64,000 nt of DNA from NCBI RefSeq assembly GCF_000384255.1, contig NZ_KB913035.1, positions 1,029,362 through 1,093,361 of the forward strand, given 5' to 3'. The DNA is from Methylotenera mobilis 13. GTDB taxonomy: Bacteria; Pseudomonadota; Gammaproteobacteria; Burkholderiales; Methylophilaceae. The notes under the pieces are model-generated. The model was not told the DNA's origin. It made no database searches and saw only the letters and a list, made by a program, of their open reading frames with translations. Below are positions 6,085 to 20,276 of this stretch, in pieces (within the stretch, counting starts at the first letter, position 1; every line of letters begins with the position of its first letter). The translations under genes were made by a program, and so were the position numbers.

Positions 6085-6107
6085 GTGCATTTGCACCTTA
6101 TTTGTGC
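6085..6107. promoter_or_regulatory. Candidate NtrC enhancer dyads upstream of nasT
   Basis: Two overlapping inverted repeats: GTGCA-TT-TGCAC (6085-6096) and GCACC-TTATT-TGTGC (6093-6107). The second matches the NtrC-type arrangement GCACy-N5-rGTGC except for one base. They lie about 90 bp upstream of a perfect sigma-54 promoter, where an enhancer-binding activator is expected. NtrC binding is inferred; no protein evidence exists in the window. Confidence 0.55.
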
Positions 6108-6193
6108 GAACAATCATCACTGAAGTTATTTTCTGAATCTCCTGCAGCGCGCTATTCCATATTAAACAAGTGGTTATGCTGGTATTAAATAGT

Positions 6194-6209
6194 TGGCACA
6201 CCTATTGCT
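6194..6209 (+). promoter_or_regulatory. Sigma-54 (-24/-12) promoter of nasT
   Basis: The sequence reads TGGCAC-acctA-TTGCT. It matches the RpoN consensus TGGCAC-N5-TTGCW at every fixed base, with exactly 10 bp between the GG (6195-6196) and GC (6207-6208) dinucleotides. Transcription would start near 6220, about 20 bases before the nasT ATG at 6242. It indicates nitrogen-limitation control through an enhancer-binding protein such as NtrC. Confidence 0.85.
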
Positions 6210-6241: not shown

Positions 6242-6817
6242 ATGTTAAAAGTAATGATTGTTGATAATAATTTGGAGCGTGTTAAACCACTCAAGCAGTC
6301 TTTGCTTGATAACGGTTACGATGTCATCGCTCATCTTAGAGATACCATCAACTTAAATGATGCATGCAGTAAATTACAACCAGATGTGGTGGTGATTGAT
6401 ACAGACTCACCAAGTCGTGACACATTAGAGCACATTTGTGTCATGACAATGAATGACCCTCGTCCTGTGATGATGTTTACACATGATGGCGATAAAGAGC
6501 AGATTAAATTGGCAACGCAGGCAGGTGTGTGTGCTTATGTGGTGGGTACTTTACCAAATGAGCGTTTGCAACCAGTGATTGATGCGGCGGTTGCTAGGTT
6601 TGAGGAATTTAAGAATTTACGGACTGCCTTGCAGGAGGCAAATACCAAGTTAAGCGAACGTAAAGTGATTGAACGTGCAAAAGGTTTGATCATGAAACAG
6701 CGCAACGTTGATGAAAACGAAGCGTATAGCATGTTAAGAAAAATGGCGATGGAAAAGCATACGCGCATCGGGTCTTTAGCAGCACAGATAGTTGAAGCGG
6801 CACAATTGCTACTTTAG
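6242..6817 (+). CDS. nasT: NasT-type ANTAR response regulator / transcription antiterminator
   Basis: 191 residues. Residues 1-125 form a receiver fold with Asp53 in VIDTDSP at the phosphoacceptor position, but the conserved Lys near the end of the receiver is replaced (YVVGTLP), suggesting a pseudo-receiver as in known NasT proteins. Residues ~132-190 form an ANTAR RNA-binding domain (ERKVIERAKGLIMKQ, then an EAYSMLRKMAM helix). The family binds paired hexaloop hairpins in nascent leaders and prevents termination. Exactly such a leader lies immediately downstream, before nrtA. The gene is driven by a perfect sigma-54 promoter. In Azotobacter and Pseudomonas NasT is held inactive by the nitrate sensor NasS; no nasS is adjacent here. 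The role is well supported; the signal input is unknown. Confidence 0.92.
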   Translation: MLKVMIVDNNLERVKPLKQSLLDNGYDVIAHLRDTINLNDACSKLQPDVVVIDTDSPSRDTLEHICVMTMNDPRPVMMFTHDGDKEQIKLATQAGVCAYVVGTLPNERLQPVIDAAVARFEEFKNLRTALQEANTKLSERKVIERAKGLIMKQRNVDENEAYSMLRKMAMEKHTRIGSLAAQIVEAAQLLL

Positions 6818-6853
6818 CTGGTAACTAAGAATTTGGTGGTGGTTGAGTCCAAA

Positions 6854-6915
6854 AGTCCAATGAAGGACTAGTGAGCTAAATCATCCAAGCAGTAAAAAAG
6901 AGCCAATGGTGGCTC
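6854..6915 (+). promoter_or_regulatory. Dual-hexaloop ANTAR RNA target in nrtA leader
   Basis: Two RNA hairpins lie in tandem. P1 has stem AGTCC/GGACT (6854-6858 with 6865-6869) and loop AATGAA (6859-6864). P2 has stem GAGCC/GGCTC (6900-6904 with 6911-6915) and loop AATGGT (6905-6910). Both loops are six bases with A at position 1 and G at position 4, the signature recognised by ANTAR domains. The linker is about 30 bases. They sit between nasT and a strong terminator that precedes nrtA, so NasT binding should relieve termination of the nrt operon. Confidence 0.85.
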
Positions 6916-6934
6916 AGATCATGTAATACAAGAC

Positions 6935-7003
6935 AAAGGCGTCTTGATAAGCAATCAACTCTTTTATTTAAGAGCTGGTTCAACTTATCAGACGCCTTTT
7001 TTT
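6935..7003 (+). terminator. Leader terminator (attenuator) upstream of nrtA
   Basis: The left arm at 6935-6951 pairs with the right arm at 6984-6999 over 16 base pairs with one bulged T, and a T run follows (6997-7003). A small internal hairpin CTCTT/AAGAG (6959-6974) sits in the loop. It lies between the two ANTAR hairpins and the nrtA ribosome-binding site. It is therefore read as the conditional terminator of an antitermination leader rather than the end of nasT alone. Confidence 0.85.
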
Positions 7004-7045
7004 ATGAATTTTTTAGATTGTTTGGATTATTTTAGGAGAACTAAG

Positions 7046-8350
7046 ATGGGCAATGACAATATCAGTAACAAAGAAAGTAAATTAGGTCAGCAATCGAATT
7101 TGGTGGTTGATTCAGCACGTCGTGACTTTTTTAAAATGAGTGCAATGGGTGCACTAGGTGCTGCAGCGATGATGGGTTTAGTGCCAAATGGTATTCGCAC
7201 ACAAGCTTACGCGGCAGGTTCTGACGCCCCAGAAATTACCAATGTCAAAATTGGTTTTATTCCACTCACAGACTGTGCACCAATTATCGTGGCAGCTGAA
7301 ATGGGTTTTGATAAGAAATACGGCATCAAAATTACCCCTTCAAAAGAAGCGTCTTGGGCCGCCGTGCGCGATAAAGTTTCTAATGGCGAGTTACATGCAG
7401 CACATATTCTGTACGGTATGGTATACGGTGTACAGCTAGGTATTGGTGGACAGCAAAAAGATATGGCGGTCTTGATGGGCTTAAACCATAACGGTCAAGG
7501 CATCACGCTTTCTAATCAGCTCAAAGAAAAAGGTGTGAAAGACGGTAAAAGTCTTAAGCGCTTAATTGATAACGAAAACCGTGACTATACATTTGCACAA
7601 ACATTCCCAACAGGTACCCATGCAATGTGGTTGAACTATTGGCTAGCTGCAAATGGTATTCACCCAGTGAAAGATGTTAAAAATATTGTCGTACCACCGC
7701 CACAAATGGTGGCCAATATGCGTATCGGCAATATGGATGGCTACTGCGTGGGTGAGCCTTGGAATGCTAGGGCAATTTTCGACAAAGTAGGCTTCACTGT
7801 TGCAACAACGCAAGATATCTGGGTAGATCACCCTGAAAAAGTATTGGGAGCTACAGCGGAGTTTGTAGAGAAAAACCCAAATACTGCACGTGCCATGATG
7901 ATGGCGATTCTTGATGCATGTCGTTATATCGATGCCGCAGAAAATCGTGCAAAAGTGGCTAAGTTAATTTCAGGTAAAGCCTACGTCAATGCACCAGAGC
8001 AAGTGATTGCAGGCCGCTTTGTGGGTGATTACGACAATGGTAACGGTAAGGTATGGAAAGATCCTAACTACATGAAGTTCTTTGATGATGGCAAAGTGAA
8101 CTATCCATTCTTATCAGATGGCATGTGGTTCTTAACACAACACAAACGTTGGGGCTTGCTCAAATCTGACCCTGATTACTTAGGTGTTGCAACGAAGATC
8201 AACCAAGTAAAACTTTACTCAGAGGCCGCATCGCAATTAGGTATTAATGTTCCAAAAAGCGCAATGCGCAGTAGTAAGTTAATGGATGGCGTAGTGTGGG
8301 ATGGTTCTAACCCAGCTGCTTATGCTGCATCGTTCAAGATTAAAGTGTAG
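7046..8350 (+). CDS. nrtA: Nitrate ABC transporter substrate-binding protein (NrtA family), Tat signal
   Basis: 434 residues from ATG 7046, which has TTTAGGAG at good spacing. The frame is open further upstream to 6944, but that part overlaps the leader terminator and is not expected to be translated. Residues 24-31 read ARRDFFKM, a twin-arginine export motif, followed by a hydrophobic Ala/Gly/Met segment and a cleavage region near AYA. The mature protein is a CynA/NrtA/SsuA-like binding protein (TDCAPIIVAAEMGF near its N-terminus, then FPTGTHAMWLNYWLAANG and YCVGEPWNARAIF). It would capture nitrate (or nitrite) in the periplasm and pass it to NrtB. Tat export implies folding before export. 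It might also double as a nitrate sensor, but its export signal argues against a cytoplasmic NasS role. Confidence 0.93.
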   Translation: MGNDNISNKESKLGQQSNLVVDSARRDFFKMSAMGALGAAAMMGLVPNGIRTQAYAAGSDAPEITNVKIGFIPLTDCAPIIVAAEMGFDKKYGIKITPSKEASWAAVRDKVSNGELHAAHILYGMVYGVQLGIGGQQKDMAVLMGLNHNGQGITLSNQLKEKGVKDGKSLKRLIDNENRDYTFAQTFPTGTHAMWLNYWLAANGIHPVKDVKNIVVPPPQMVANMRIGNMDGYCVGEPWNARAIFDKVGFTVATTQDIWVDHPEKVLGATAEFVEKNPNTARAMMMAILDACRYIDAAENRAKVAKLISGKAYVNAPEQVIAGRFVGDYDNGNGKVWKDPNYMKFFDDGKVNYPFLSDGMWFLTQHKRWGLLKSDPDYLGVATKINQVKLYSEAASQLGINVPKSAMRSSKLMDGVVWDGSNPAAYAASFKIKV

Positions 8351-10119: not shown

Positions 10120-11553
10120 ATGAAAACCAAAACAGTATTCAAAATGAATATGGTCATGGCCTGTACTGTGCTAGCATTGGCTGGTATGGCACACTCAGCT
10201 TACGCAGCAGAGGAAGAGGCCGTTGCTGAATATACATTTTTAGATGCGATCAAAGACGGCAAGCAAATGACCAACTTCCGTTTACGTTATGAAAATGTGA
10301 ACCAGGAAGCATTTAGTAGCGGTAGCAAGCTTAAGACTGGCGAAGCATTTACTTTGCGTAGTTTAATCGGTTGGCAAACTGCACCATACAAAAATTTTAG
10401 TATTGGTGCACAAATCACCGACGTACATGAGTTTAACGATGACTTTAATGATCGTAGAAACAATCTGTCAGAACACAGCAATGGTGGCGCAGCAGGTGCT
10501 GGTCTAAATAAAGCGCAATATCCAAATATTGTAGACCCTGGCTTTACTGATATTAATCAACTTTATGTGGATTGGACTGGTATCAAAAACACTAAAGTAC
10601 GCTTAGGCCGCCAACAGCTCAACTTAGATAATGTTCGCTTTATCGGTGACATTGCATTTAGACAAAATATGCAAGTGTTTGACGGTGTTTCTGTATTGAA
10701 TAAGAGCATTCAAGATGTGGAGCTTTTCGCAGCTCACTTTGATAAAGTGCGTCAAATTACGACCAAAGACCGTCATGGCAATATCGATATCGTGAATGCA
10801 AAATACCGCATTTCGCCTTCAGAGTCGTTGGTTGGTTACGGCTATTTAATTGATGTCGCTAACTTGGGTCAAAACAATGGTAATCCAGCCGCAATCGGTA
10901 CTGCTGCACAAGGTGGTAACGGTCTTGGTGCTAGCCAAGATACGACTAAATCAGCAACTACGGATGCTAGTAGTAAAACTTTTGGTACACGCTTAGATGG
11001 TGTACGTGCAGTTAACCCTGATTGGAAAGTATTGTACACAGCAGAATACGCTAAGCAAACAGATATGAGTGGTGGTAGTCCGTTAATCGACGCACACTAT
11101 TTCAAATTAGGTGGTGGTGCGGCATACGGTGCTTGGTCTGTTCGTTTAGATCATGAAAAGCTTTCTAGTAACGATGGTCAGTATGCATTTCAGACGCCAT
11201 TAGGGACTAACCATCTATTCCAAGGTTGGGCAGATCACTTTCTAGCAACGCCACGTCAAGGGATGGAAGATACCTTTGTCACAGTAGCTGGTGCTATCGA
11301 TAAGGTGAAACTTTATGCTGAGTATCATGTGTTCAAGTCTGATGTTAAATATCAGTCTACCGGCGGGCGCTTGGGTGACAAATACGGTAGCGAATTTGAC
11401 ATCAGTGCAACTTATCCTTTCAGCGATAAGGTGTTAGGGAAAGTTGAATATGCAAACTTTAATGAAAGTGATATTTATGGCACTACTTTACAAAATGCCG
11501 CACGTAAGGGCGACAAGGAAATTATTTGGGTAACTGGCATGTACACATTTTAA
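10120..11553 (+). CDS. Outer-membrane beta-barrel porin, alginate-export-like family, in nitrate operon
   Basis: 477 residues with an N-terminal signal peptide (cleavage near AHSAYA-AEE). The body alternates polar and hydrophobic residues with many aromatic girdle residues and ends in GMYTF, a C-terminal phenylalanine typical of outer-membrane barrels. The segments FRLRYENVNQEAF and VRLGRQQLNLDNVRFIGD resemble the alginate-export porin family. It is 55 bp after nrtD on the same strand, so probably co-transcribed. Its location suggests it lets nitrate, or another small anion, cross the outer membrane. The barrel and location are read from sequence; substrate is inferred from context. Confidence 0.8.
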   Translation: MKTKTVFKMNMVMACTVLALAGMAHSAYAAEEEAVAEYTFLDAIKDGKQMTNFRLRYENVNQEAFSSGSKLKTGEAFTLRSLIGWQTAPYKNFSIGAQITDVHEFNDDFNDRRNNLSEHSNGGAAGAGLNKAQYPNIVDPGFTDINQLYVDWTGIKNTKVRLGRQQLNLDNVRFIGDIAFRQNMQVFDGVSVLNKSIQDVELFAAHFDKVRQITTKDRHGNIDIVNAKYRISPSESLVGYGYLIDVANLGQNNGNPAAIGTAAQGGNGLGASQDTTKSATTDASSKTFGTRLDGVRAVNPDWKVLYTAEYAKQTDMSGGSPLIDAHYFKLGGGAAYGAWSVRLDHEKLSSNDGQYAFQTPLGTNHLFQGWADHFLATPRQGMEDTFVTVAGAIDKVKLYAEYHVFKSDVKYQSTGGRLGDKYGSEFDISATYPFSDKVLGKVEYANFNESDIYGTTLQNAARKGDKEIIWVTGMYTF

Positions 11554-11601
11554 GTCTTAGCGATAAGTAAAATTGCCTACAAAAAGTGCAATTAAAAATA
11601 A

Positions 11602-11631
11602 TGCACCATTATGGAATTCCATAATGGTGCA
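11602..11631. repeat. 30-bp perfect palindrome upstream of nirB
   Basis: Bases 11602-11631 are a perfect inverted repeat. Each half begins TGCACCATTATGG and the centre is GAATTC. No T tract follows in either direction, so a simple intrinsic terminator is unlikely. The outer TGCACC...GGTGCA bases resemble NtrC half-sites, and the element lies about 100 bp upstream of a sigma-54-like promoter, an enhancer-like distance. It may be an operator or enhancer for the nirB operon, or it may form a strong hairpin ending the nrt-porin transcript. Confidence 0.7.
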
Positions 11632-11732
11632 CTGGCACTGTTAAAGAGCCCATTGTAATAATATGGTTATTGTGTAGTGAAAATAAGTATCTGTTTTGAA
11701 TAGAAAAAAATATTTTAATGAATTGTTAAAGT

Positions 11733-11748
11733 TGGCATGATTACTGCC
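11733..11748 (+). promoter_or_regulatory. Sigma-54-like promoter of nirB operon
   Basis: The sequence reads TGGCAT-gatta-CTGCC. GG (11734-11735) and GC (11746-11747) are separated by 10 bp as required. Two consensus positions differ (C to T in the -24 box, T to C in the -12 box). The start would fall near 11759, about 35 bases before nirB. With the matching promoter before nasT this supports common RpoN control. Confidence 0.6.
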
Positions 11749-11793
11749 TATATGTGAGCGAAACGACAATTTAGATTAATTGATGGTGAAAAC

Positions 11794-14223
11794 ATGCAAA
11801 AGATGAAATTAGTAGTAATTGGTAACGGTATGGCCGGGATGCGTACAGTAGAAGAGTTGCTGAAAATAGCACCTGATCTTTACGATATCGCCGTGTTTGG
11901 CGATGAACCTTACCCTAATTACAACCGCATTATGTTGTCTCCAGTGCTTGCAAATGAGCAAACGATTGATGACATCATTTTAAATACCAGAGAATGGTAT
12001 GCAGAGAACAATATCACCCTGCACACAAGTGCGCGGGTGAATAAAATCGATCGTAAAAACCGTGTGGTTTATACAGAAGACGGTATCAGTGCTGAATATG
12101 ACCGACTCTTAATCGCGACAGGCTCTAAGCCGTTTATGCCACCAATCCCAGGCAACGAGTTTGAGGGTGTGTTGGGTTACCGTGATATTAAAGATACGAA
12201 CGACATGATTGAGGCTGCAAAAGTCTATAAACATGCTGTGGTAATCGGTGGCGGTTTATTAGGTCTAGAAGCAGCAAACGGCTTAAAAATTCAGGGCATG
12301 GATGTAACAGTTATCCATAAAAACGAGTGGTTGTTAGAGCGTCAGTTAGATAAAACTGCAGGTGGAATGCTGCAAAAAAATCTAGAAGCTAAAGGCCTTA
12401 GTTTCTTATTAAATAAAAATACAGAGCAGTTGGTTGGCGATGAAAAAGGTCGCGTGAAGTCTGTGAGATTTAGCGATGGTCAAGAGATCCCAGCAGACTT
12501 GGTAGTGTGGGCAGTTGGTATCCGCCCAAATTACGCATTAGCTGAGTCGGCAGGTATTTATTGCAATAGAGGTATTGTGGTCAATGACACCATGCAAACT
12601 TATGATCCACGCGTGTATTCAGTGGGTGAGTGCGTAGCGCACCGTGGTATCTCTTACGGACTTGTTGCACCATTATTTGAAATGGCTAAAGTGTGTGCTA
12701 CGCACTTGGCTAACTTTGGCATAGGCCAATATAAAGGATCAGTCACATCAACTAAACTTAAAGTAACAGGTATTGATTTGTTCAGTGCCGGTGACTTTAT
12801 GGGCGGTGATGATACAGAAGAAATTGTTTTGCACGATGCAGTTGGTGGGATTTACAAAAAGCTCATCATCAAAAATGACAAAATCGTTGGTAGCGTGCTT
12901 TATGGGGATACCACGGATGGTTCGTGGTATTTTCAGATGTTAAGAGATGGTAAGGCCATCCACGAGATTCGTGATCACCTCATGTTCGGCCAAGATTCAC
13001 TAGGTAATAGTGGTCATCAAGGCCAAGATAAAGCAGCTTCCATGACCAATGAAATGGAAGTGTGTGGCTGTAATGGCGTATGTAAAGGCACGATTGTTAA
13101 AGCCATTCAAGATAAAGGTTTATTCACGATTGATGATGTGAAGAAACAAACTAAAGCTGGTTCTAGCTGTGGTTCTTGCGTGGGCTTGGTTGAGCAGATT
13201 CTGGCATCTACTTTAGGTGGTGGTTATGCGCCTCCATCTACAAGTAAAGCAGTGTGTGGATGTACTACAAAGAGCCATGAAGAGGTGCGTGCAGAAATCC
13301 GCACCCATAAATACTTGAACATTCCAGATGCTATGCAAGGCATGGCTTGGTCTACACCAAACGGTTGTGCAACTTGCAGACCAGCACTTAACTACTATTT
13401 ACTTTCAACTTGGCCACACGAGGCAAAAGATGACCCGCAATCACGTTTTATTAATGAACGTGTGCATGCAAATATCCAAAAAGATGGTACATATTCCGTG
13501 ATTCCACGTATGTACGGTGGTGTAACTACCCCTGATCAGCTTAGAAAAATTGCAGACGTTGCAGATAAATATGCAGTGCCGATGGTGAAGGTAACTGGCG
13601 GTCAGCGTATTGACTTACTTGGCGTGAAAAAAGATGACTTGGTCGACATGTGGAAAGACTTAGACATGCCATCAGGCTATGCTTATGGTAAGAGTATCCG
13701 TACTGTGAAGACCTGTGTAGGTTCAGAGTTCTGCCGTTTTGGAACACAAAACTCTACCCAATTAGGCATTGATATCGAAAAAGCATTCGACCATATGTGG
13801 GCACCACATAAAGTGAAGTTTGCGGTTTCTGGATGTCCACGTAACTGTGCTGAGTCTGGTGTTAAAGATGTCGGTATTATTGGTGTGGATTCAGGCTGGG
13901 AAATTTATGTAGGCGGCAACGGTGGTATTAAAACTGAAGCAGCACAGTTTCTATGTAAAGTAAAAACCTCAGATGAAGTCATGGAGTACTCAGGTGCATT
14001 TATTCAGATTTATCGCGAAGAAGCGCGCTACTTAGATCGTACGGTGCATTGGATTGAACGTGTTGGTTTAGAGTATGTAAAACAACGTATTCTTGAAGAT
14101 GCAGAAGGACGCAAAGCGGCATATGAGCGCTTAATTTATGCGTTGCAAGGTGCATCAGATCCTTGGGCTGAGCGTGTGCAAAATCGTGAGCAACATAAAG
14201 AATACGAAACTATTACTGTTTAA
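11794..14223 (+). CDS. nirB: Assimilatory nitrite reductase [NAD(P)H] large subunit
   Basis: 809 residues, close to the usual NirB length. The N-terminal FAD/NAD(P)H oxidoreductase module (about 1-400) has VIGNGMAGMRTVEELL and VIGGGLLGLEAANGL. The middle has BFD-like [2Fe-2S] cysteines (VCGCNGVCKGT, then SSCGSC). The C-terminal sulfite/nitrite reductase domain has the siroheme-[4Fe-4S] cysteines CVGSEFCRFG and SGCPRNCAES. It reduces nitrite to ammonium with NirD as partner. It heads the nirB-narK-PP2C/kinase-nirD-nasA run. The start has a weak GGTG ribosome site; a second Met three codons later is possible. Confidence 0.97.
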   Translation: MQKMKLVVIGNGMAGMRTVEELLKIAPDLYDIAVFGDEPYPNYNRIMLSPVLANEQTIDDIILNTREWYAENNITLHTSARVNKIDRKNRVVYTEDGISAEYDRLLIATGSKPFMPPIPGNEFEGVLGYRDIKDTNDMIEAAKVYKHAVVIGGGLLGLEAANGLKIQGMDVTVIHKNEWLLERQLDKTAGGMLQKNLEAKGLSFLLNKNTEQLVGDEKGRVKSVRFSDGQEIPADLVVWAVGIRPNYALAESAGIYCNRGIVVNDTMQTYDPRVYSVGECVAHRGISYGLVAPLFEMAKVCATHLANFGIGQYKGSVTSTKLKVTGIDLFSAGDFMGGDDTEEIVLHDAVGGIYKKLIIKNDKIVGSVLYGDTTDGSWYFQMLRDGKAIHEIRDHLMFGQDSLGNSGHQGQDKAASMTNEMEVCGCNGVCKGTIVKAIQDKGLFTIDDVKKQTKAGSSCGSCVGLVEQILASTLGGGYAPPSTSKAVCGCTTKSHEEVRAEIRTHKYLNIPDAMQGMAWSTPNGCATCRPALNYYLLSTWPHEAKDDPQSRFINERVHANIQKDGTYSVIPRMYGGVTTPDQLRKIADVADKYAVPMVKVTGGQRIDLLGVKKDDLVDMWKDLDMPSGYAYGKSIRTVKTCVGSEFCRFGTQNSTQLGIDIEKAFDHMWAPHKVKFAVSGCPRNCAESGVKDVGIIGVDSGWEIYVGGNGGIKTEAAQFLCKVKTSDEVMEYSGAFIQIYREEARYLDRTVHWIERVGLEYVKQRILEDAEGRKAAYERLIYALQGASDPWAERVQNREQHKEYETITV

Positions 14224-14252
14224 TGCATTGTTAAAGATTAGGAAACAATATA

Positions 14253-15458
14253 ATGAAATCTAGTTTTTGGAAATCAGGTCATACACCGACCTTGCTATCA
14301 TCTTTTTTATATTTTGATTTAAGCTTTATGGTGTGGGTGCTGTTGGGGCCGTTAGCTGTGCAGATTGCGACAGACCTACAATTGACACCAGCAGAAAAAG
14401 GCTTAATGGTGGCAACCCCTGTGTTGGCGGGTGCACTATTACGTATCGTGATGGGTGTTTTAGTTGACCAGATTAAACCTAAAATGGCAGGCTTAATCGG
14501 TCAAGTGATTGTGCTTGCTAGCTTATTGGTAGCATGGTTACATGGCTTACAAACTTTCCAGCACACGTTAATGTTAGGTTTAGGACTAGGCTTTGCGGGT
14601 GCTGCGTTTGCTGTTGCATTGCCGTTAGCAAGTCGTTGGTATCCACCAGAGCATCAGGGTACAGCATTGGGTATTGCTGGCGCAGGTAACTCTGGTACAG
14701 TGTTTGCTGCATTGTTTGCACCTGGTTTAGCCGTGGCATATGGTTGGAATAACGTATTTGGTCTAGCGTTAATTCCATTAAGTATCGCAATGTTTATTTA
14801 TATCATTTTTGCAAAAGACGCACCTGATGCGCCAGCAGCAAAATCGTTAAGTCAATACGTACAAATTCTTAAAGATAAAGATGCTTGGTGGTTCATGTTT
14901 TTCTACAGCGTTACCTTTGGTGGTTTTGTAGGTCTTGCGTCATCTCTTACTATTTATTTCAATGACTTATATGCATTAGGGCCTGTGGTCGCTGGCTACT
15001 GTACCGCAGCGTGCGTGTTTGCAGGTTCGCTTGTGCGTCCTTTAGGTGGATGGTTAGCTGACCGTGTGGGCGGTATTCGTACTTTGCTTACAATGTATAT
15101 ATTAGCTTCTGTATTGTTGGTGGTGATGAGCTTTGGTCAGCCAACTTATCAATTGGCGTTATGGGTAATCGTGCCAACAATGGCGATTCTAGGTATGGGT
15201 AACGGTGCAGTATTCCAGTTAGTGCCACAACGCTTCCGTAAAGAAATTGGCGTAATGACCGGTTTGGTTGGTATGGCAGGTGGGGTTGGTGGTTTTTACT
15301 TAGCATCAAGCTTAGGGATTATTAAACAAGCGACTGGTAGCTACCAAGTTGGTATACTGATTTTTGCAGGGTTAGCTGCTTTGGCTGTGCTTGGTTTAGT
15401 TGGCGTTAAAACTCGCTGGCGTACCACTTGGGGAGCAGCAACAACTGCTAAAGTATAG
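14253..15458 (+). CDS. narK: Nitrate/nitrite MFS transporter (NarK/NasA family)
   Basis: 401 residues with about 12 membrane segments. Conserved NarK-type features include an FDLSFMVWVLLGPLA first helix, GNSGTVFAALFAPGL (the nitrate signature region of helix 5) and NGAVFQLVPQRF with GMAGGVGGF late in the protein (second signature). It lies 29 bp after nirB. It would import nitrate or exchange nitrate and nitrite, giving the cell a second uptake route beside the Nrt ABC system. The direction of transport cannot be told from sequence. Confidence 0.94.
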   Translation: MKSSFWKSGHTPTLLSSFLYFDLSFMVWVLLGPLAVQIATDLQLTPAEKGLMVATPVLAGALLRIVMGVLVDQIKPKMAGLIGQVIVLASLLVAWLHGLQTFQHTLMLGLGLGFAGAAFAVALPLASRWYPPEHQGTALGIAGAGNSGTVFAALFAPGLAVAYGWNNVFGLALIPLSIAMFIYIIFAKDAPDAPAAKSLSQYVQILKDKDAWWFMFFYSVTFGGFVGLASSLTIYFNDLYALGPVVAGYCTAACVFAGSLVRPLGGWLADRVGGIRTLLTMYILASVLLVVMSFGQPTYQLALWVIVPTMAILGMGNGAVFQLVPQRFRKEIGVMTGLVGMAGGVGGFYLASSLGIIKQATGSYQVGILIFAGLAALAVLGLVGVKTRWRTTWGAATTAKV

Positions 15459-15515
15459 CGCTTGTCTTAACTAACTATACTAAACCAAGTATAAAACTAG
15501 GTATAAAAGTCAACT

Positions 15516-17210
15516 ATGTCACTTCAATTCACTGTGGGCCAATCTAGCCTTACTGGCCCTAGATCACGTAATGAAGATTATGTTGGCTTAGTAACGCCAT
15601 CAGGTGAGCAATTGAGTGTAAAAGGTGCACTTTTTGCAATCGCCGATGGCGTAAGTGGCAATGCTGGCGGTGGTGAAGCTTCTGAGATGACGGTGCGTAC
15701 CGTCACGACAGATTACTATGCCACACCAGATACTTGGGAGCCGCTTACTTCTTTAGATAAGGTGCTAACGGCTGCAAACCGTTGGCTCATTGCACAGGCG
15801 AATGCGAATAGTGATATGGTGGGGATGGCGACAACCTTGTCATTGCTCGTGTTGCGTGGACAGCGCTACTATGCAGCGCATGTGGGCGACACCCGTATCT
15901 ATCTACTGCGAAATGGCGTGCTGAAACAACTGACGACTGACCACGTTTGGGACAGACCTGATATGCGTCATGTTTTAAAGCGCGCAGTTGGTTTAGATCG
16001 ACATCTAGAAGTAGACTTTTCTGAAGGAGCATTGCAAGAAGGTGATGTGTTTGCTTTAATGAGCGACGGCGTGTGGGACAGCGTAGGCGAGCAAACTATC
16101 CATAAGCTTTTGGGCTTATACAATAACCCTCAAATGATTTGCGATCATCTCACTAAAACGGCGATTGAAAAAGGCAGCCAGGATAATTCTACTGCAGTTG
16201 CGTTAAGAGTTACCGCATTAGGTGAGGATACCTTATTAGAGCTTTTAGCAGGTGGTAAGCACCTTACAGTACCTGATAAGTTAAGTGTGGGTGCCCATAT
16301 TGACGACTTTGAAGTACTTGAGTTGATGTATGAGTCACGAGCTAGTTTGCTGTATAAAGTGAGGCATACGACAACTAAGCAACTGTTTGTATTAAAAACC
16401 CTGCAACCAGCATTAGCAACAGACACGGAGAGTTGTCATGGCTTGCTGAATGAGGAGTGGTTAGCAAAACGGGTGGTTTCTCAGTACGTGCCCCAAGTGT
16501 TTCCAGTTTCAGTTGAGAAGCGAAGCAAGCTTTATTATGTGATGAGCTGGCATGAAGGTGCAACCTTACAACAAAGATTAGATAGCGGACACCACTTTAC
16601 GGTAGCTGGTATTCTTAAAGTTGGCATCGATATGATGCGCGGTATTGGTGCCTTGCATCGTCTAAATATTGTGCATAGAGATATTAAACCTGCTAATGTG
16701 CATCAAGGCAGTGATCAGCGACTACGTATCCTAGATTTAGGCGTTGCATCGAGCATGCAAACAAATAAATCAGATGTGGTACAAAATCCAGGCACACCTA
16801 GTTATATGGCGCCGGAATTGTTTGAAGGTGAAACGGCAACGCCTCAGAGTGATATTTATGCGGCAGGTGTTACGCTGTATCATTTACTAACACGTAAATA
16901 TCCACATGGCGAAATTGAGCCTTTTCAGCATCCTAAGTTTGGTAGCCCTACGGCACCGACCAGATACCGCCCGGATATTCCATATTGGTTAGAAAATATT
17001 GTATTAAAAGCAATTGCAACAGACCCTAAAGTGCGGTTTGAAACAGCTGAGGAAATGCTAATCGCACTAGAACATGGTGAGTTAAAGCCTATTTTGCCAC
17101 CAGTACGTACACCTTTGATTGCCCGCGCTCGGTTAGTTAAGTGGCAATGGATAGCGATTTTTTCGTTAATCTTAAATTTTTTATTGATTTATTTGTTAGT
17201 AGTTTCGTGA
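15516..17210 (+). CDS. Bifunctional PP2C phosphatase / Ser-Thr protein kinase, membrane anchored
   Basis: 564 residues. The N-terminal PP2C domain (about 5-235) keeps metal-binding motifs RNEDYVG, FAIADGVSG, HVGDTRIYLL, LMSDGVWDS and DNSTA. The C-terminal Hanks-type kinase (about 265-530) has an ATP-site Lys in LFVLKTL, catalytic HRDIKPANV at about 386, DLG in place of DFG, and GTPSYMAPEL. One terminal membrane helix (about 542-562) ends the protein, leaving both enzymes in the cytoplasm. It is placed between narK and nirD, so likely co-expressed with nitrate assimilation. Similar fusions are known in proteobacterial nitrate operons, but substrates are not defined to my knowledge. A role in switching transport or reductase activity is inference. 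Confidence 0.9.
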   Translation: MSLQFTVGQSSLTGPRSRNEDYVGLVTPSGEQLSVKGALFAIADGVSGNAGGGEASEMTVRTVTTDYYATPDTWEPLTSLDKVLTAANRWLIAQANANSDMVGMATTLSLLVLRGQRYYAAHVGDTRIYLLRNGVLKQLTTDHVWDRPDMRHVLKRAVGLDRHLEVDFSEGALQEGDVFALMSDGVWDSVGEQTIHKLLGLYNNPQMICDHLTKTAIEKGSQDNSTAVALRVTALGEDTLLELLAGGKHLTVPDKLSVGAHIDDFEVLELMYESRASLLYKVRHTTTKQLFVLKTLQPALATDTESCHGLLNEEWLAKRVVSQYVPQVFPVSVEKRSKLYYVMSWHEGATLQQRLDSGHHFTVAGILKVGIDMMRGIGALHRLNIVHRDIKPANVHQGSDQRLRILDLGVASSMQTNKSDVVQNPGTPSYMAPELFEGETATPQSDIYAAGVTLYHLLTRKYPHGEIEPFQHPKFGSPTAPTRYRPDIPYWLENIVLKAIATDPKVRFETAEEMLIALEHGELKPILPPVRTPLIARARLVKWQWIAIFSLILNFLLIYLLVVS

Positions 17211-17238
17211 TTAATCTAGATATAAAGGTAGGACAAAA

Positions 17239-17553
17239 ATGAGTAATTGGGTAAGAGTTGCACCTCTTGAAGAAATCCCTAAGTTAGGCGCACGTGTTGT
17301 GCGCAGTAAAGATATTGATATCGGTGTGTTTCGTTTAGAAGATGACCGTATTTATGCTGTGAATAATAGTTGCCCACACAAAGGCGGCCCACTATCAGAG
17401 GGGATTGTGTATGGTGACAAAATTGCTTGTCCATTACATAGCTGGAAAATCAGTTTAGTCGATGGCAAAGCTGATGAGCCAGATGAAGGTGCGACAGCAT
17501 GTTTCAATACTAAGATTGAAGATGGCGTAGTTTATTTAGAATTAAAAGAGTAA
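17239..17553 (+). CDS. nirD: Nitrite reductase small subunit, Rieske-type
   Basis: 104 residues. The Rieske [2Fe-2S] ligands are present: Cys45-x-His47 (CPHKGGPL) and Cys64-x2-His67 (CPLHSW). Many NirD proteins of enteric bacteria lack these ligands, so this one is the cluster-binding type. It associates with NirB and may pass electrons to the siroheme. SD AGG lies before ATG. The kinase gene is 28 bp upstream and nasA starts only 5 bases after its stop. Confidence 0.95.
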   Translation: MSNWVRVAPLEEIPKLGARVVRSKDIDIGVFRLEDDRIYAVNNSCPHKGGPLSEGIVYGDKIACPLHSWKISLVDGKADEPDEGATACFNTKIEDGVVYLELKE

Positions 17554-17558
17554 TTGAT

Positions 17559-20276
17559 TTGATTAAGCAAACTAAAAGTACTTGTTGTTACTGCGGCGTT
17601 GGCTGCGGGGTGATTATTCATTCTGAAAATGACAAAATTATCGATGTTAAAGGTGATCCACAACATCCAGCAAACTTTGGACGTTTGTGTACCAAAGGGT
17701 CAACACTACATCTATCAGCTAAGCTGGATAATCGACTTCTGTACCCTGAGATACGCACGAATCGTGATTTACCTCGGAAGCGAGCGACATGGGATGAGTC
17801 ACTCAACTTAGTGGTTGAGAAGTTTGCAACATTAATAGAAACACACGGTCCTGATAGTGTTGCTTTTTATATTTCTGGGCAATTGCTGACAGAAGATTAT
17901 TATGTCTTCAATAAATTAGCCAAAGGCTTGATTGGTACCAATAATATTGATACAAACTCAAGGCTTTGCATGAGCTCAGCCGTTGCCGGTTACAAGTTAA
18001 CGCTTGGCGCTGATGCTCCGCCGGCTTGTTATGAAGACATTGATCATACTGATTGTTTATTTATTGCCGGCTCTAACACTGCATTTGCACATCCGATTAT
18101 TTATCGTCGTATTGAAGATGCAAAAGAGAAGAATCCTAATTTAAAAATAGTCGTCGTCGATCCACGCCAGACGGATACCGCTAAGGCAGCAGATTTGCAC
18201 TTAGCAATCTTGCCGGGTACGGATGTGGCGCTGTTCAACGGTATGTTGCATGTCATGTTATGGGAAGGCATGTTAGATAACGCCTATATTGATGCCTATA
18301 CCAATGGCTTTGCTGAGCTCAAAGAAACTGTTCGTGAATATACGCCTAAAATGGTGGCCGATATTTGCGGTATTAAAGAAGCAGACATTATTACTGCAGC
18401 AAAGTGGTTTGGTAAAGGCCCAACGCTTTCTATGTACTGCCAAGGCTTGAATCAGTCGGTAAATGGTAGCGATAAAAACGCAGCCTTGATTAATCTGCAT
18501 TTAGCCACAGGTCAAATTGGTAAACTCGGAGCAGGGCCGTTCTCATTGACTGGCCAGCCTAATGCGATGGGTGGGCGTGAGGTTGGCGGAATGGCTAACT
18601 TGTTATCTGGTCACCGTGACTTAGCTAATCCAGAGCATCGTGCTGAAGTCGCTAGTTTGTGGGGTATTGAAAGTGTACCTGATGTACCAGGTAAGTCCGC
18701 TGTTGATATGTTTAAGGCAGTTAAAGATGGCAGTATTAAAGCAATCTGGATTGCCTGTACAAATCCTGCACAGTCTATGCCTGATCTTAATGAGGTATTA
18801 GAAGCGTTAGAAAATGCTGAGCTAGTGGTTGTGCAAGATGCCTTCGATAATACTGAAACTTGCCAATATGCTGATGTCTTACTACCAGCTAGCACATGGG
18901 GTGAAAAAGAAGGGTCGGTTACCAATTCTGAGCGCCGCATTACACGTGTTAATCCTGCTGTCATCCCACCAGCCGAAGCACGCCATGATTGGGCAATTGT
19001 TGTAGATTTTGCACAACGTTTAGAACAAAGACTCGCAAAAAATACCAAGTTGTTTCCATACGCGACAACTGAACAGATCTTTGATGAGCATCGTGAAACT
19101 ACGCGCGGGCGAGATTTAGACATTACTGGCCTCAGCTACACATTACTTAATGAGCAGGGCCCGCAACAATGGCCGTTTAAAACTGGTGATGTAACAGGTA
19201 AGGCACGTTTGTATGCAGACGGTGTGTTCCAGAAGCCTGATGGGAAAGCACAGTTCCTGAATGCTACTTATAAAGGCACTGCAGATAAAACAGATGCACG
19301 TTATCCACTGCACCTATTGACGGGTCGTCTACGCGACCAGTGGCATGGTATGAGTCGTACTGGTAATGTTGCGCAGTTATTTAACCATGCAGAAGAGCCT
19401 GTGATTCATATGAGCGCTGATGATATGATGCGCCGCTCCATTAAAAATGGAGATATTGTCAGAGTGAGCAATAAACGCGGTAGCTTGGTATTACCTGCTC
19501 AAACGTCAGATGAGGTGAAACCCTCCCAGACCTTTATTCCGATGCACTGGGGTAGCCAGTATATGCATGGTTTAGGCGTTAATGCATTAATGCCTTCGGC
19601 TTATGACAAAGTTTCTAAGCAACCCGAGCTTAAGCATACTGCGATTAAGTTAGAAAAGTTAGAACTGCCCTGGCGCATGACCGTGATGCGCACGATACAT
19701 AATCTAGAAGTGTTGCAAAAGTTAAAAGGATTTTTATCTCATTTTGAGTACGCTAGTTGTGGCTTGTTTGGGCGTGAGACAGAAAACCATTGTGGCATGC
19801 TCATCCTAAGAGCAGCGCACACAGAGGCACCTGATGAGCAAGTGATTCAGGACATCGATGCGCTGCTGGGCATGACGGGGGATGCTCCATTGCTTAATTA
19901 TCTCGATGCTAAGCGTGGCATCAGTAAACGTATTCTGGTTGAAACCAACTTAGAAAATAAGGCAGAGGTCACTGGGGTTAGATTAGTGGGTGAGACCTTA
20001 GCTGCTGCTTGGCTTAAAGATGTCATGGGAACTGGCGAGTTTAGCCCTGAGCTACGTCGCTGGGCATTAGCGCCGTTAAGTGCACCGCCAGCTGGTCAGC
20101 GTAGCCGCGGCAAGATTGTATGTAACTGCTTGGATGTTGCAGAGAATGAAATTATCGATAATATTCAATTGGGCGCAGATTTGCTCACATTGCAGAATAA
20201 GCTCAAATGCGGTACACAGTGCGGGTCTTGTGTGCCTGAGTTAAAACAGTTGGTGCGCATACATGCTAAACATTAA
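17559..20276 (+). CDS. nasA: Assimilatory nitrate reductase, molybdopterin catalytic subunit
   Basis: 905 residues. N-terminal [4Fe-4S] ligands are Cys9, Cys12, Cys16 and Cys44 (CCYCGVGCG, GRLCTKG). A bis-MGD molybdopterin oxidoreductase body follows (NIDTNSRLCMSSAVAGY, QNAMGGREVGGMANLL in altered form). A C-terminal BFD-like [2Fe-2S] domain has IVCNCLDV and KCGTQCGSC. It reduces nitrate to nitrite in the cytoplasm. The start codon is TTG at 17559, 5 bases after nirD; AAGAG at the end of nirD serves as ribosome site, so translation is probably coupled. No NasC-type NADH reductase subunit is nearby, so the electron donor may be ferredoxin, flavodoxin or a protein encoded elsewhere. Confidence 0.96.
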   Translation: MIKQTKSTCCYCGVGCGVIIHSENDKIIDVKGDPQHPANFGRLCTKGSTLHLSAKLDNRLLYPEIRTNRDLPRKRATWDESLNLVVEKFATLIETHGPDSVAFYISGQLLTEDYYVFNKLAKGLIGTNNIDTNSRLCMSSAVAGYKLTLGADAPPACYEDIDHTDCLFIAGSNTAFAHPIIYRRIEDAKEKNPNLKIVVVDPRQTDTAKAADLHLAILPGTDVALFNGMLHVMLWEGMLDNAYIDAYTNGFAELKETVREYTPKMVADICGIKEADIITAAKWFGKGPTLSMYCQGLNQSVNGSDKNAALINLHLATGQIGKLGAGPFSLTGQPNAMGGREVGGMANLLSGHRDLANPEHRAEVASLWGIESVPDVPGKSAVDMFKAVKDGSIKAIWIACTNPAQSMPDLNEVLEALENAELVVVQDAFDNTETCQYADVLLPASTWGEKEGSVTNSERRITRVNPAVIPPAEARHDWAIVVDFAQRLEQRLAKNTKLFPYATTEQIFDEHRETTRGRDLDITGLSYTLLNEQGPQQWPFKTGDVTGKARLYADGVFQKPDGKAQFLNATYKGTADKTDARYPLHLLTGRLRDQWHGMSRTGNVAQLFNHAEEPVIHMSADDMMRRSIKNGDIVRVSNKRGSLVLPAQTSDEVKPSQTFIPMHWGSQYMHGLGVNALMPSAYDKVSKQPELKHTAIKLEKLELPWRMTVMRTIHNLEVLQKLKGFLSHFEYASCGLFGRETENHCGMLILRAAHTEAPDEQVIQDIDALLGMTGDAPLLNYLDAKRGISKRILVETNLENKAEVTGVRLVGETLAAAWLKDVMGTGEFSPELRRWALAPLSAPPAGQRSRGKIVCNCLDVAENEIIDNIQLGADLLTLQNKLKCGTQCGSCVPELKQLVRIHAKH

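Follow-up and report, generated by a model that had tools for sequence, protein, structure and literature searches.

The window (the whole stretch of 64,000 nucleotides analysed here) holds the regulator gene nasT, a short leader, the gene nrtA for a nitrate-binding protein and the rest of a probable nas cluster. The relevant features are as follows.

6092..6108, no strand assigned: NtrC-like palindrome TGCACCTTATTTGTGCG, 10 of 12 positions against the consensus
6194..6209, plus strand: sigma-54-type -24/-12 site TGGCAC-N5-TTGCT upstream of nasT
6242..6817, plus strand: nasT, a pseudo-receiver without Lys plus an ANTAR domain (Pfam PF00072 and PF03861)
6854..6869, plus strand: hexaloop H1, AGUCC-AAUGAA-GGACU, an extra upstream hexaloop
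6900..6915, plus strand: hexaloop H2, GAGCC-AAUGGU-GGCUC, P1 of the canonical dual motif
6929..6946, plus strand: hexaloop H3, CAAGAC-AAAGGC-GUCUUG, P2 and candidate antiterminator (from the A1/G4 loop scan and covariation)
6935..6951, plus strand: intrinsic terminator, 5' arm, paired in relatives
6984..7003, plus strand: terminator 3' arm and T tract (from pairing in relatives and three-way covariation)
7046..8350, plus strand: nrtA, encoding the sole NMT1_2 protein found in the genome
8396..10064, plus strand: nrtB permease and nrtC/D ATPase (TIGR01183, TIGR01184), probable target genes
10120..20276, plus strand: rest of the probable nas cluster, from domain matches

An earlier reading of this DNA, made from the sequence only, had placed nasT directly upstream of the leader, and this is correct: the 3' end of the gene, which encodes a REC-ANTAR protein, directly abuts the leader (6817 / 6818). 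The likely start of nrtA is ATG 7046, preceded by AGGAG at 7034-7038. The nrtA frame, which had been taken to extend back through the leader, covers just a part of it (first possible start TTG 6944, stop-free from about 6896). NrtA carries a Tat-type signal (SARRDFFKM, read by eye) and its nearest PDB sequence is NrtA 2g29. Further downstream, 10120..20276 encodes a porin, nirB, a NarK-type transporter, a PP2C-kinase fusion, a NirD-like Rieske protein and a nitrate reductase-like protein; the nas cluster presumably forms one operon.

Two hexaloop hairpins and a terminator had been described in the leader. H1, H2, the stem of about 16 bp (6935-6951 / 6984-6999) and the T tract (6997-7003) are indeed present, but a third hexaloop, H3, had been overlooked. 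Its loop and right arm are the start of the terminator 5' arm, so that H3 and the terminator are mutually exclusive, and it is the only hexaloop that shares bases with the terminator (neither H1 nor H2 overlaps it). In the EutV model, as given in the accessible parts of PMC8934654 and PMC3369931, it is likewise the second hexaloop that overlaps the terminator. H3 lies at that very place, and therefore the canonical pair should be H2 and H3, with H1 as an additional element. The spacing is 30 nt between H1 and H2 and 13 nt between H2 and H3, and varies widely among relatives; for the Enterococcus faecalis eut leaders a linker of 5-12 nt is described, and lengthening to 14 hurt induction (PMC3369931, in excerpt), which puts the linker found here just over that range. 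H3 is probably the actual switch of the leader. Mutagenesis of the two originally named loops alone would miss the hairpin that probably decides on termination.

The predicted fold of the 231 nt from 6818 to 7048 has an energy of -72.1 kcal/mol (shuffles -48.2, sd 4.1; z -5.8) and includes H1, H2 and the terminator. H3 is absent from it, as would be expected if the off state is the default. A simple terminator scan did not list a plus-strand terminator before nrtA, because its loop limit is 8 whereas the arms are 32 nt apart. An Rfam search, which the sequence-only reading had proposed as a check, was of little use here: no family reached its gathering score on the leader, and relaxing the limit to E 10 brought up just six weak matches (snoRNA, miRNA, RAGATH), all with E of at least 0.36. 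One could see in this an ordinary terminator after nasT, where the gene could end with one anyway, combined with chance stem-loops and a promoter of its own for nrtA. Yet the scans found neither a sigma-54 nor a plus-strand sigma-70-like site within the leader of the window, and the A1/G4 enrichment and covariation in relatives (see below) speak against chance, so we regard this account as highly improbable.

For comparison we used the stretch between the ANTAR gene and nrtA from genomes of the family, the order and a set of named genomes. The comparison of loop A and G positions across relatives, also proposed earlier, puts the hexaloops above chance level. Upstream of H3, the 44 family-set leaders together hold 55 A1/G4 hexaloops closed by 4 Watson-Crick pairs, where dinucleotide shuffling predicts 2.0 and never gave more than 5 in 30 rounds; this count was unselected for loop identity, though the relatives are not independent observations. 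The other 15 combinations of loop bases yield 0-7 hexaloops each in the same leaders, 6 of which have no upstream A1/G4 hexaloop at all. These 44 were picked by a regulator frame below 400 aa and include up to three edge-cut NasR-type cases (L050, L061, L099). Enrichment is weaker in NasR-type leaders (n=12; 7 against 0.8 expected, shuffle maximum 6, none in 5) and in order leaders (n=11; 6 against 0.4 expected, none in 6) than in the family set. A C-G closing pair, which was no search criterion, occurs in 10/10 distinct H3 stems, 17/17 H2-type stems and 28/33 H1-type stems; the NasR SELEX motif has the same closing pair (PMC7496416, in the portion available).

Under a looser rule, H3 together with at least one upstream hexaloop is found in 54 of 57 family-set REC-type leaders, a set that includes L083 (family not in its title) and the second-nasT loci L108 and L109. 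These are also the three exceptions: L108 and L109 have H3 with nothing upstream, and L083 has no H3. At least two hexaloops upstream of H3 occur in 32/57, hence three hexaloops are common in this group and not universal. Outside the family only 19/34 order rows have H3 (3 of the other 15 are NasT-NasS pairs without a leader). Among rows without a receiver match the upstream hexaloop is missing in 4/17. A strict rule, demanding an exact match to the terminator arm, found H3 in 67/108; the later rules differ from it, so that H3 counts are not interchangeable between rules. The A and G of H3 alone prove nothing, because pairing in the terminator also holds the H3 loop.

The leader alignment comprises 37 of 40 leaders (L033, L102 and L103 were omitted, their terminator end being assigned too far). 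Leaders were admitted to it if they had A1/G4 loops and H2/H3 stems that pair over the first four positions, which makes loop conservation and part of the paired share circular. Pairing is seen in 96.2% of the H2 and H3 stem cells (27.4-50.5% with slid partners) and in 99.5% of the terminator cells (31.6-76.5% when slid). For the H2 and H3 stems together, 43 cells show a double change against 9.3 after shuffling; H2 alone has 97.3% of its cells paired and changes on both sides in 4 of 5 pairs. Three other measures show no excess over shuffling: the number of H2 and H3 pairs changed on both sides (5 against 4.3, with 229/500 shuffles as high), their pair types (12 against 12.3) and the terminator pair types (5 against 6.2). 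At one position the left arm of H3, the shared arm and the right arm of the terminator change jointly, being A-U-A in 27/37 rows and G-C-G in 10/37, a three-way change that preserves pairing in both of the predicted alternative folds. A covariance model built from the alignment scores 93.3 bits at its own locus (the window sequence is among the training rows) and finds nothing convincing elsewhere in the window's genome (next match E 0.67). It matches 20 of 60 untrained order and phylum loci at E below 0.001, where some of the 60 have no such leader and the match position was checked for some only.

The regulator itself fits a role in RNA binding. The closest PDB sequences to NasT are 6wsh and 1s8n, which we take to be EutV and Rv1626. 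The EutV RNA-contact residues (numbers from PMC8934654, as far as accessible, mapped via the alignment of the PDB sequence with an inferred index shift) are largely kept in the 82 NasT rows whose gene is followed by a leader and nrtA: Met in 82, Lys in 80, Arg in 79 and Tyr in 76, while the place of Lys147 holds Arg in 64, Lys in 14 and Gln in 4. In the receiver pocket Asp8, Asp53 and Thr80 are present; position 9 is Asn and position 102 Gly. The phospho-acceptor pocket, which in full consists of an acidic pair, Asp, Thr/Ser and Lys, is thus incomplete in NasT, and it is unlikely to be phosphorylated in the normal way. Lys at 102 is absent from all 82 rows. Even so, the receiver does not look abandoned: it is about as conserved as the ANTAR domain in the 82 rows (0.534 against 0.541; mostly family) and somewhat less so in the 28 rows from outside the family (0.396 against 0.457), a relation like that in NasS-paired NasT (0.484 against 0.543).

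A sigma-54 site (at least 10/11 positions) lies shortly before nasT in 56/57 family-set REC-type loci, against a background of 11/1800 mononucleotide shuffles, and its distance to the gene mostly takes one of two preferred values; in just 2/57 (L041, L083) it lies inside the leader. Where no receiver was matched, we took the row as NasR-type, and 16/17 such rows have the site in the leader; the one exception, L009, is a NasT-type locus that has been cut. For the other families of the order the site is found before nasT in 21/33 rows and in the leader in 29/34, and these 34 include three NasT-NasS pairs that have no leader. The REC-type Methylophilaceae leader has apparently lost a promoter of its own. 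NtrC-like best sites of at least 9 are present in 51/57 family-set REC-type loci (67/1140 mononucleotide shuffles), most of them at a distance of 130-190 nt from nasT among the rows listed, and the genome encodes an rpoN-type protein. Given that the sigma-54 site precedes nasT and is not in the leader, nasT and the attenuator are probably on one transcript.

Taken as the whole explanation, a NasT-controlled transcription attenuator before nrtA has in our estimate a probability of roughly 0.83, and at the level of sequence this RNA mechanism is well supported. Nitrogen limitation, via sigma-54 and probably NtrC, would drive a single promoter before nasT; RNA polymerase would transcribe nasT and then reach the intrinsic terminator ahead of nrtA. 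The ANTAR domain of NasT is predicted to hold H2 and H3, with H1 as a further landing site. H3 would thereby capture the 5' arm of the terminator, the terminator would be blocked, and nrtA and the nas genes would be read. The earlier designation as an ANTAR antitermination leader is in line with the enrichment, the covariation, the NasT contact residues and the recurrence in relatives; the part that cast H1 and H2 as the binding pair was wrong in part, the hexaloop that overlaps the terminator having been overlooked.

What gates the switch is a separate matter, as the usual partner of NasT appears to be missing. Searches of the closed 2.80-Mb genome gave a single match each for ANTAR (NasT) and for NMT1_2; the latter is NrtA with its Tat-type signal, and no NasS was found. 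NasS proteins beside NasT in other genomes score 187-306 bits (G006 excepted, at 331). Because no NasS was found that could restrain NasT, the gate may be the dose of NasT, as a feed-forward from the shared promoter, or another ligand or partner.

Layouts were counted over part of the listed ANTAR places (79, 61 and 83 places, mostly the stronger ones). Among 69 short ANTAR genes in the phylum sample, 47 are directly followed by a NasS-like gene (187-257 bits), 11 are separated from a following NMT1_2 gene by a gap of leader size, and 11 show neither arrangement; at least 6 of the last group (G317, G352, G421, G437, G479, G523) have a same-strand NMT1_2 gene about 800 nt upstream, since the upstream limit of 700 nt misses a NasS placed before nasT. 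A second NMT1_2 match over 177 bits is absent in 10/11 phylum leader-type genomes, and in the remaining one (G532) it scores 280 bits and lies about 3 Mb away. The order sample has 32 leader-type places against 5 NasT-NasS pairs (29 instead of 32 without the weak G198, G186 and G271, which were retained and stand beside nrtA, a choice in favour of the leader class); 24/32 are in genomes with a single NMT1_2 protein, and 3/32 (G209, G252, G274) have a signal-less one. In the family sample 45 of 50 leader-type places are in single-NMT1_2 genomes and there is one adjacent pair (G006), where G137 is counted twice and its second place resembles the G006 pair though binned as leader-type. Frame length decided what was put in the short class, and at least one NasR-type regulator truncated at a contig end (G142) is among its members. 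NasT-NasS pairs dominate the sampled phylum, whereas the nasT-leader-nrtA layout dominates the order of the window. From these sampled counts the layout without NasS is common in the order rather than peculiar to a single genome.

In the open-licence literature, as far as its accessible parts go, NasT is portrayed only as half of a NasS-NasT pair, with no report of NasT acting without NasS other than in nasS mutants; nor did we find a report of such a leader in Methylophilaceae in that literature. Here, judging by the sampled genomes, many families of one order have NasT before a well-conserved RNA switch with no NasS found, and this layout lets one ask directly what switches an ANTAR protein.

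It might be argued that NasT is blind to nitrate and antiterminates whenever it is made, the switch merely adding a threshold or delay to sigma-54/NtrC control. We rate this as a real possibility, though at somewhat less than even odds. It agrees with the missing NasS, with the single sigma-54 site ahead of nasT and with Paracoccus, where nas expression becomes constitutive upon nasS deletion (PMC3795266, in excerpt); given that result, a response to nitrate is not assured here. On the other hand, little is gained by a terminator whose antiterminator is always made alongside, and the receiver comes close to the ANTAR domain in conservation. In addition, 15/65 family-sample leader-type places have a long, NasR-like regulator (by frame length), so that an input from nitrate seems to be wanted. 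Two of two long family regulators tested are NIT-ANTAR proteins by Pfam, that is, NasR. Another family of the order (f49) has two NIT-ANTAR proteins and two ANTAR proteins whose receiver match is weak and falls short of the Pfam cut-off. The frame length of L175 would suggest a NasR type, but Pfam shows REC-ANTAR. A separate NIT sensor feeding NasT was rejected as well: the sole NIT match of the genome carries HAMP and chemoreceptor signalling domains.

NrtA itself could be the sensor. Tat substrates fold before export, and an unexported, folded NrtA precursor would hold NasT until nitrate binds, like NasS does elsewhere. NrtA is the sole NasS homologue found in the genome, and NasS and the nasT-leader-nrtA layout are largely mutually exclusive in the samples. 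Signal-less NrtA-like proteins, defined from their N-termini, stand beside NasT in several places in the order (L108, L109, L182, L186, L188-L192, L249). In a tree of 162 NMT1_2 proteins, with one label for all signal-less ones, this label must have changed at least 4 times if the starred branches hold: L182 and the group L108/L109/L186/L133 nest within the NrtA clade, apart from the main NasS clade, and a third signal-less group is at the base of the NrtA clade, where it is joined by L213, a NasS from another family of the class. The 21/22 other adjacent NasS proteins form a separate clade. This suggests that an NrtA of this clade can become the partner of NasT, and permits that ordinary NrtA may be so already.

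Nonetheless, the tree carries long-branch warnings and one NasS (L213) joins the third group. Furthermore, the six leader-type loci that were taken from outside the order (L230, L233-L237) have Sec-like NrtA signals by eye, which makes a folded precursor unlikely in these; 4/6 of them have no receiver by phmmer, and in 2 of those Pfam finds none either. We hold NrtA as the sensor to be rather unlikely, and doubt slightly more that the binding protein of the transporter took over the sensor role in this lineage. If it did, a single transcript under control of the attenuator would encode both the transporter and the protein that inhibits the antiterminator, and the signal-less NrtA-like proteins beside NasT would be the same partnership made permanent.

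Finally, another ligand or a kinase might act on NasT, such as c-di-GMP or the Ser/Thr kinase-phosphatase of the cluster, which we consider quite improbable. The PP2C-kinase fusion is encoded in the nas cluster, but similar kinases occur also in nas clusters that have NasS, and a His-Asp phosphorelay is unlikely because the receiver of NasT lacks the usual Lys. Binding of c-di-GMP to Pseudomonas putida NasT, lowering its affinity for RNA, has been reported (PMC12830290, in the accessible part, citing Nie 2024).

Returning to the attenuator, its elements are recognizable in several known systems. The E. faecalis EutV eut leaders also have A1/G4 hexaloops, the second of which overlaps the terminator, and a REC-ANTAR regulator with the same RNA-contact residues (PMC3369931 and PMC8934654, in excerpt). 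Unlike in that system, as there described, we find three hexaloops, a regulator gene directly before its attenuator and a receiver that lacks the Lys expected of an active phospho-receiver, and a scan of ten neighbouring proteins gave no histidine kinase. The proposed likeness to Azotobacter NasT extends to the REC-ANTAR protein and the hairpin leader and stops at NasS. More generally, the NasS-NasT systems of Paracoccus, Azotobacter and Pseudomonas share the REC-ANTAR NasT, the nas target and the hairpin leader (PMC3795266, PMC5424462, PMC12830290, in their available parts), and the P. putida leader shares the feature of a sigma-54 promoter (PMC12830290); they differ from this locus, where no NasS is found in the genome, nasT stands directly before the leader and the pattern of receiver residues is another. 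With the Klebsiella NasR-nasF leader (PMC7496416, in excerpt) a hexaloop leader, a terminator and a nas operon are shared, but the proposed likeness to NasR itself fails: Pfam finds no NIT domain in NasT, as the one-component NasR type would have, and the sigma-54 site is before the regulator gene and not in the leader. In sum, the locus combines an ANTAR antitermination leader that has one hexaloop more than usual, a NasT for which no NasS was found and its own arrangement of the promoter. The sigma-54 promoter of Klebsiella nasF differs in place from a site before the regulator gene. A parallel outside the ANTAR proteins is the E. coli bgl operon, where a single transcript likewise carries the antiterminator gene and, after it, one of the terminators that its product controls; unlike NasT, BglG belongs to the PRD/CAT proteins and has a different RNA target.

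At three of the fetched loci (L186, L191 and L192) the leader model, a covariance model built from the family leaders, matches 3' of the gene for the signal-less NrtA-like protein, so that the gene order here is nasT, nasS-like gene, leader. Two loci from the window's genus (L108 and L109, in genomes G137 and G006) carry an additional nasT with an NrtA-like gene lacking a signal sequence behind it, and both H3 (the A1/G4 hexaloop overlapping the terminator 5' arm) and a terminator are located between these genes. At L153 (G172) nrtA has a nasT-like gene on either side, and the leader model yields two weak matches inside the same 9.5 kb as both of these genes.

Four loci (L233-L236; G529, G514, G475 and G391) belong to the same class as the window's organism and to a different order. 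The ANTAR regulators encoded there are short and show no receiver match, and the nrtA genes that come after them code for proteins with Sec-like signals; these short regulators are perhaps another kind of NasS-less regulator.

The window's nitrate assimilation cluster also contains a PP2C phosphatase-Ser/Thr kinase fusion (15516-17210, + strand), whose neighbours encode a transporter of the NarK type on one side and a NirD-like Rieske protein on the other. Between nrtC/D and nirB lies a gene for a porin-like outer-membrane protein of the Alginate_exp/Opr family (10120-11553, + strand), which might be an outer-membrane nitrate channel.

The sole NIT-domain match of the window's own genome (G000:C1:1993529-1994263) falls in a protein of 1041 aa (L255, 778-3903) that also has HAMP and chemoreceptor signalling domains, and is possibly a nitrate chemoreceptor.
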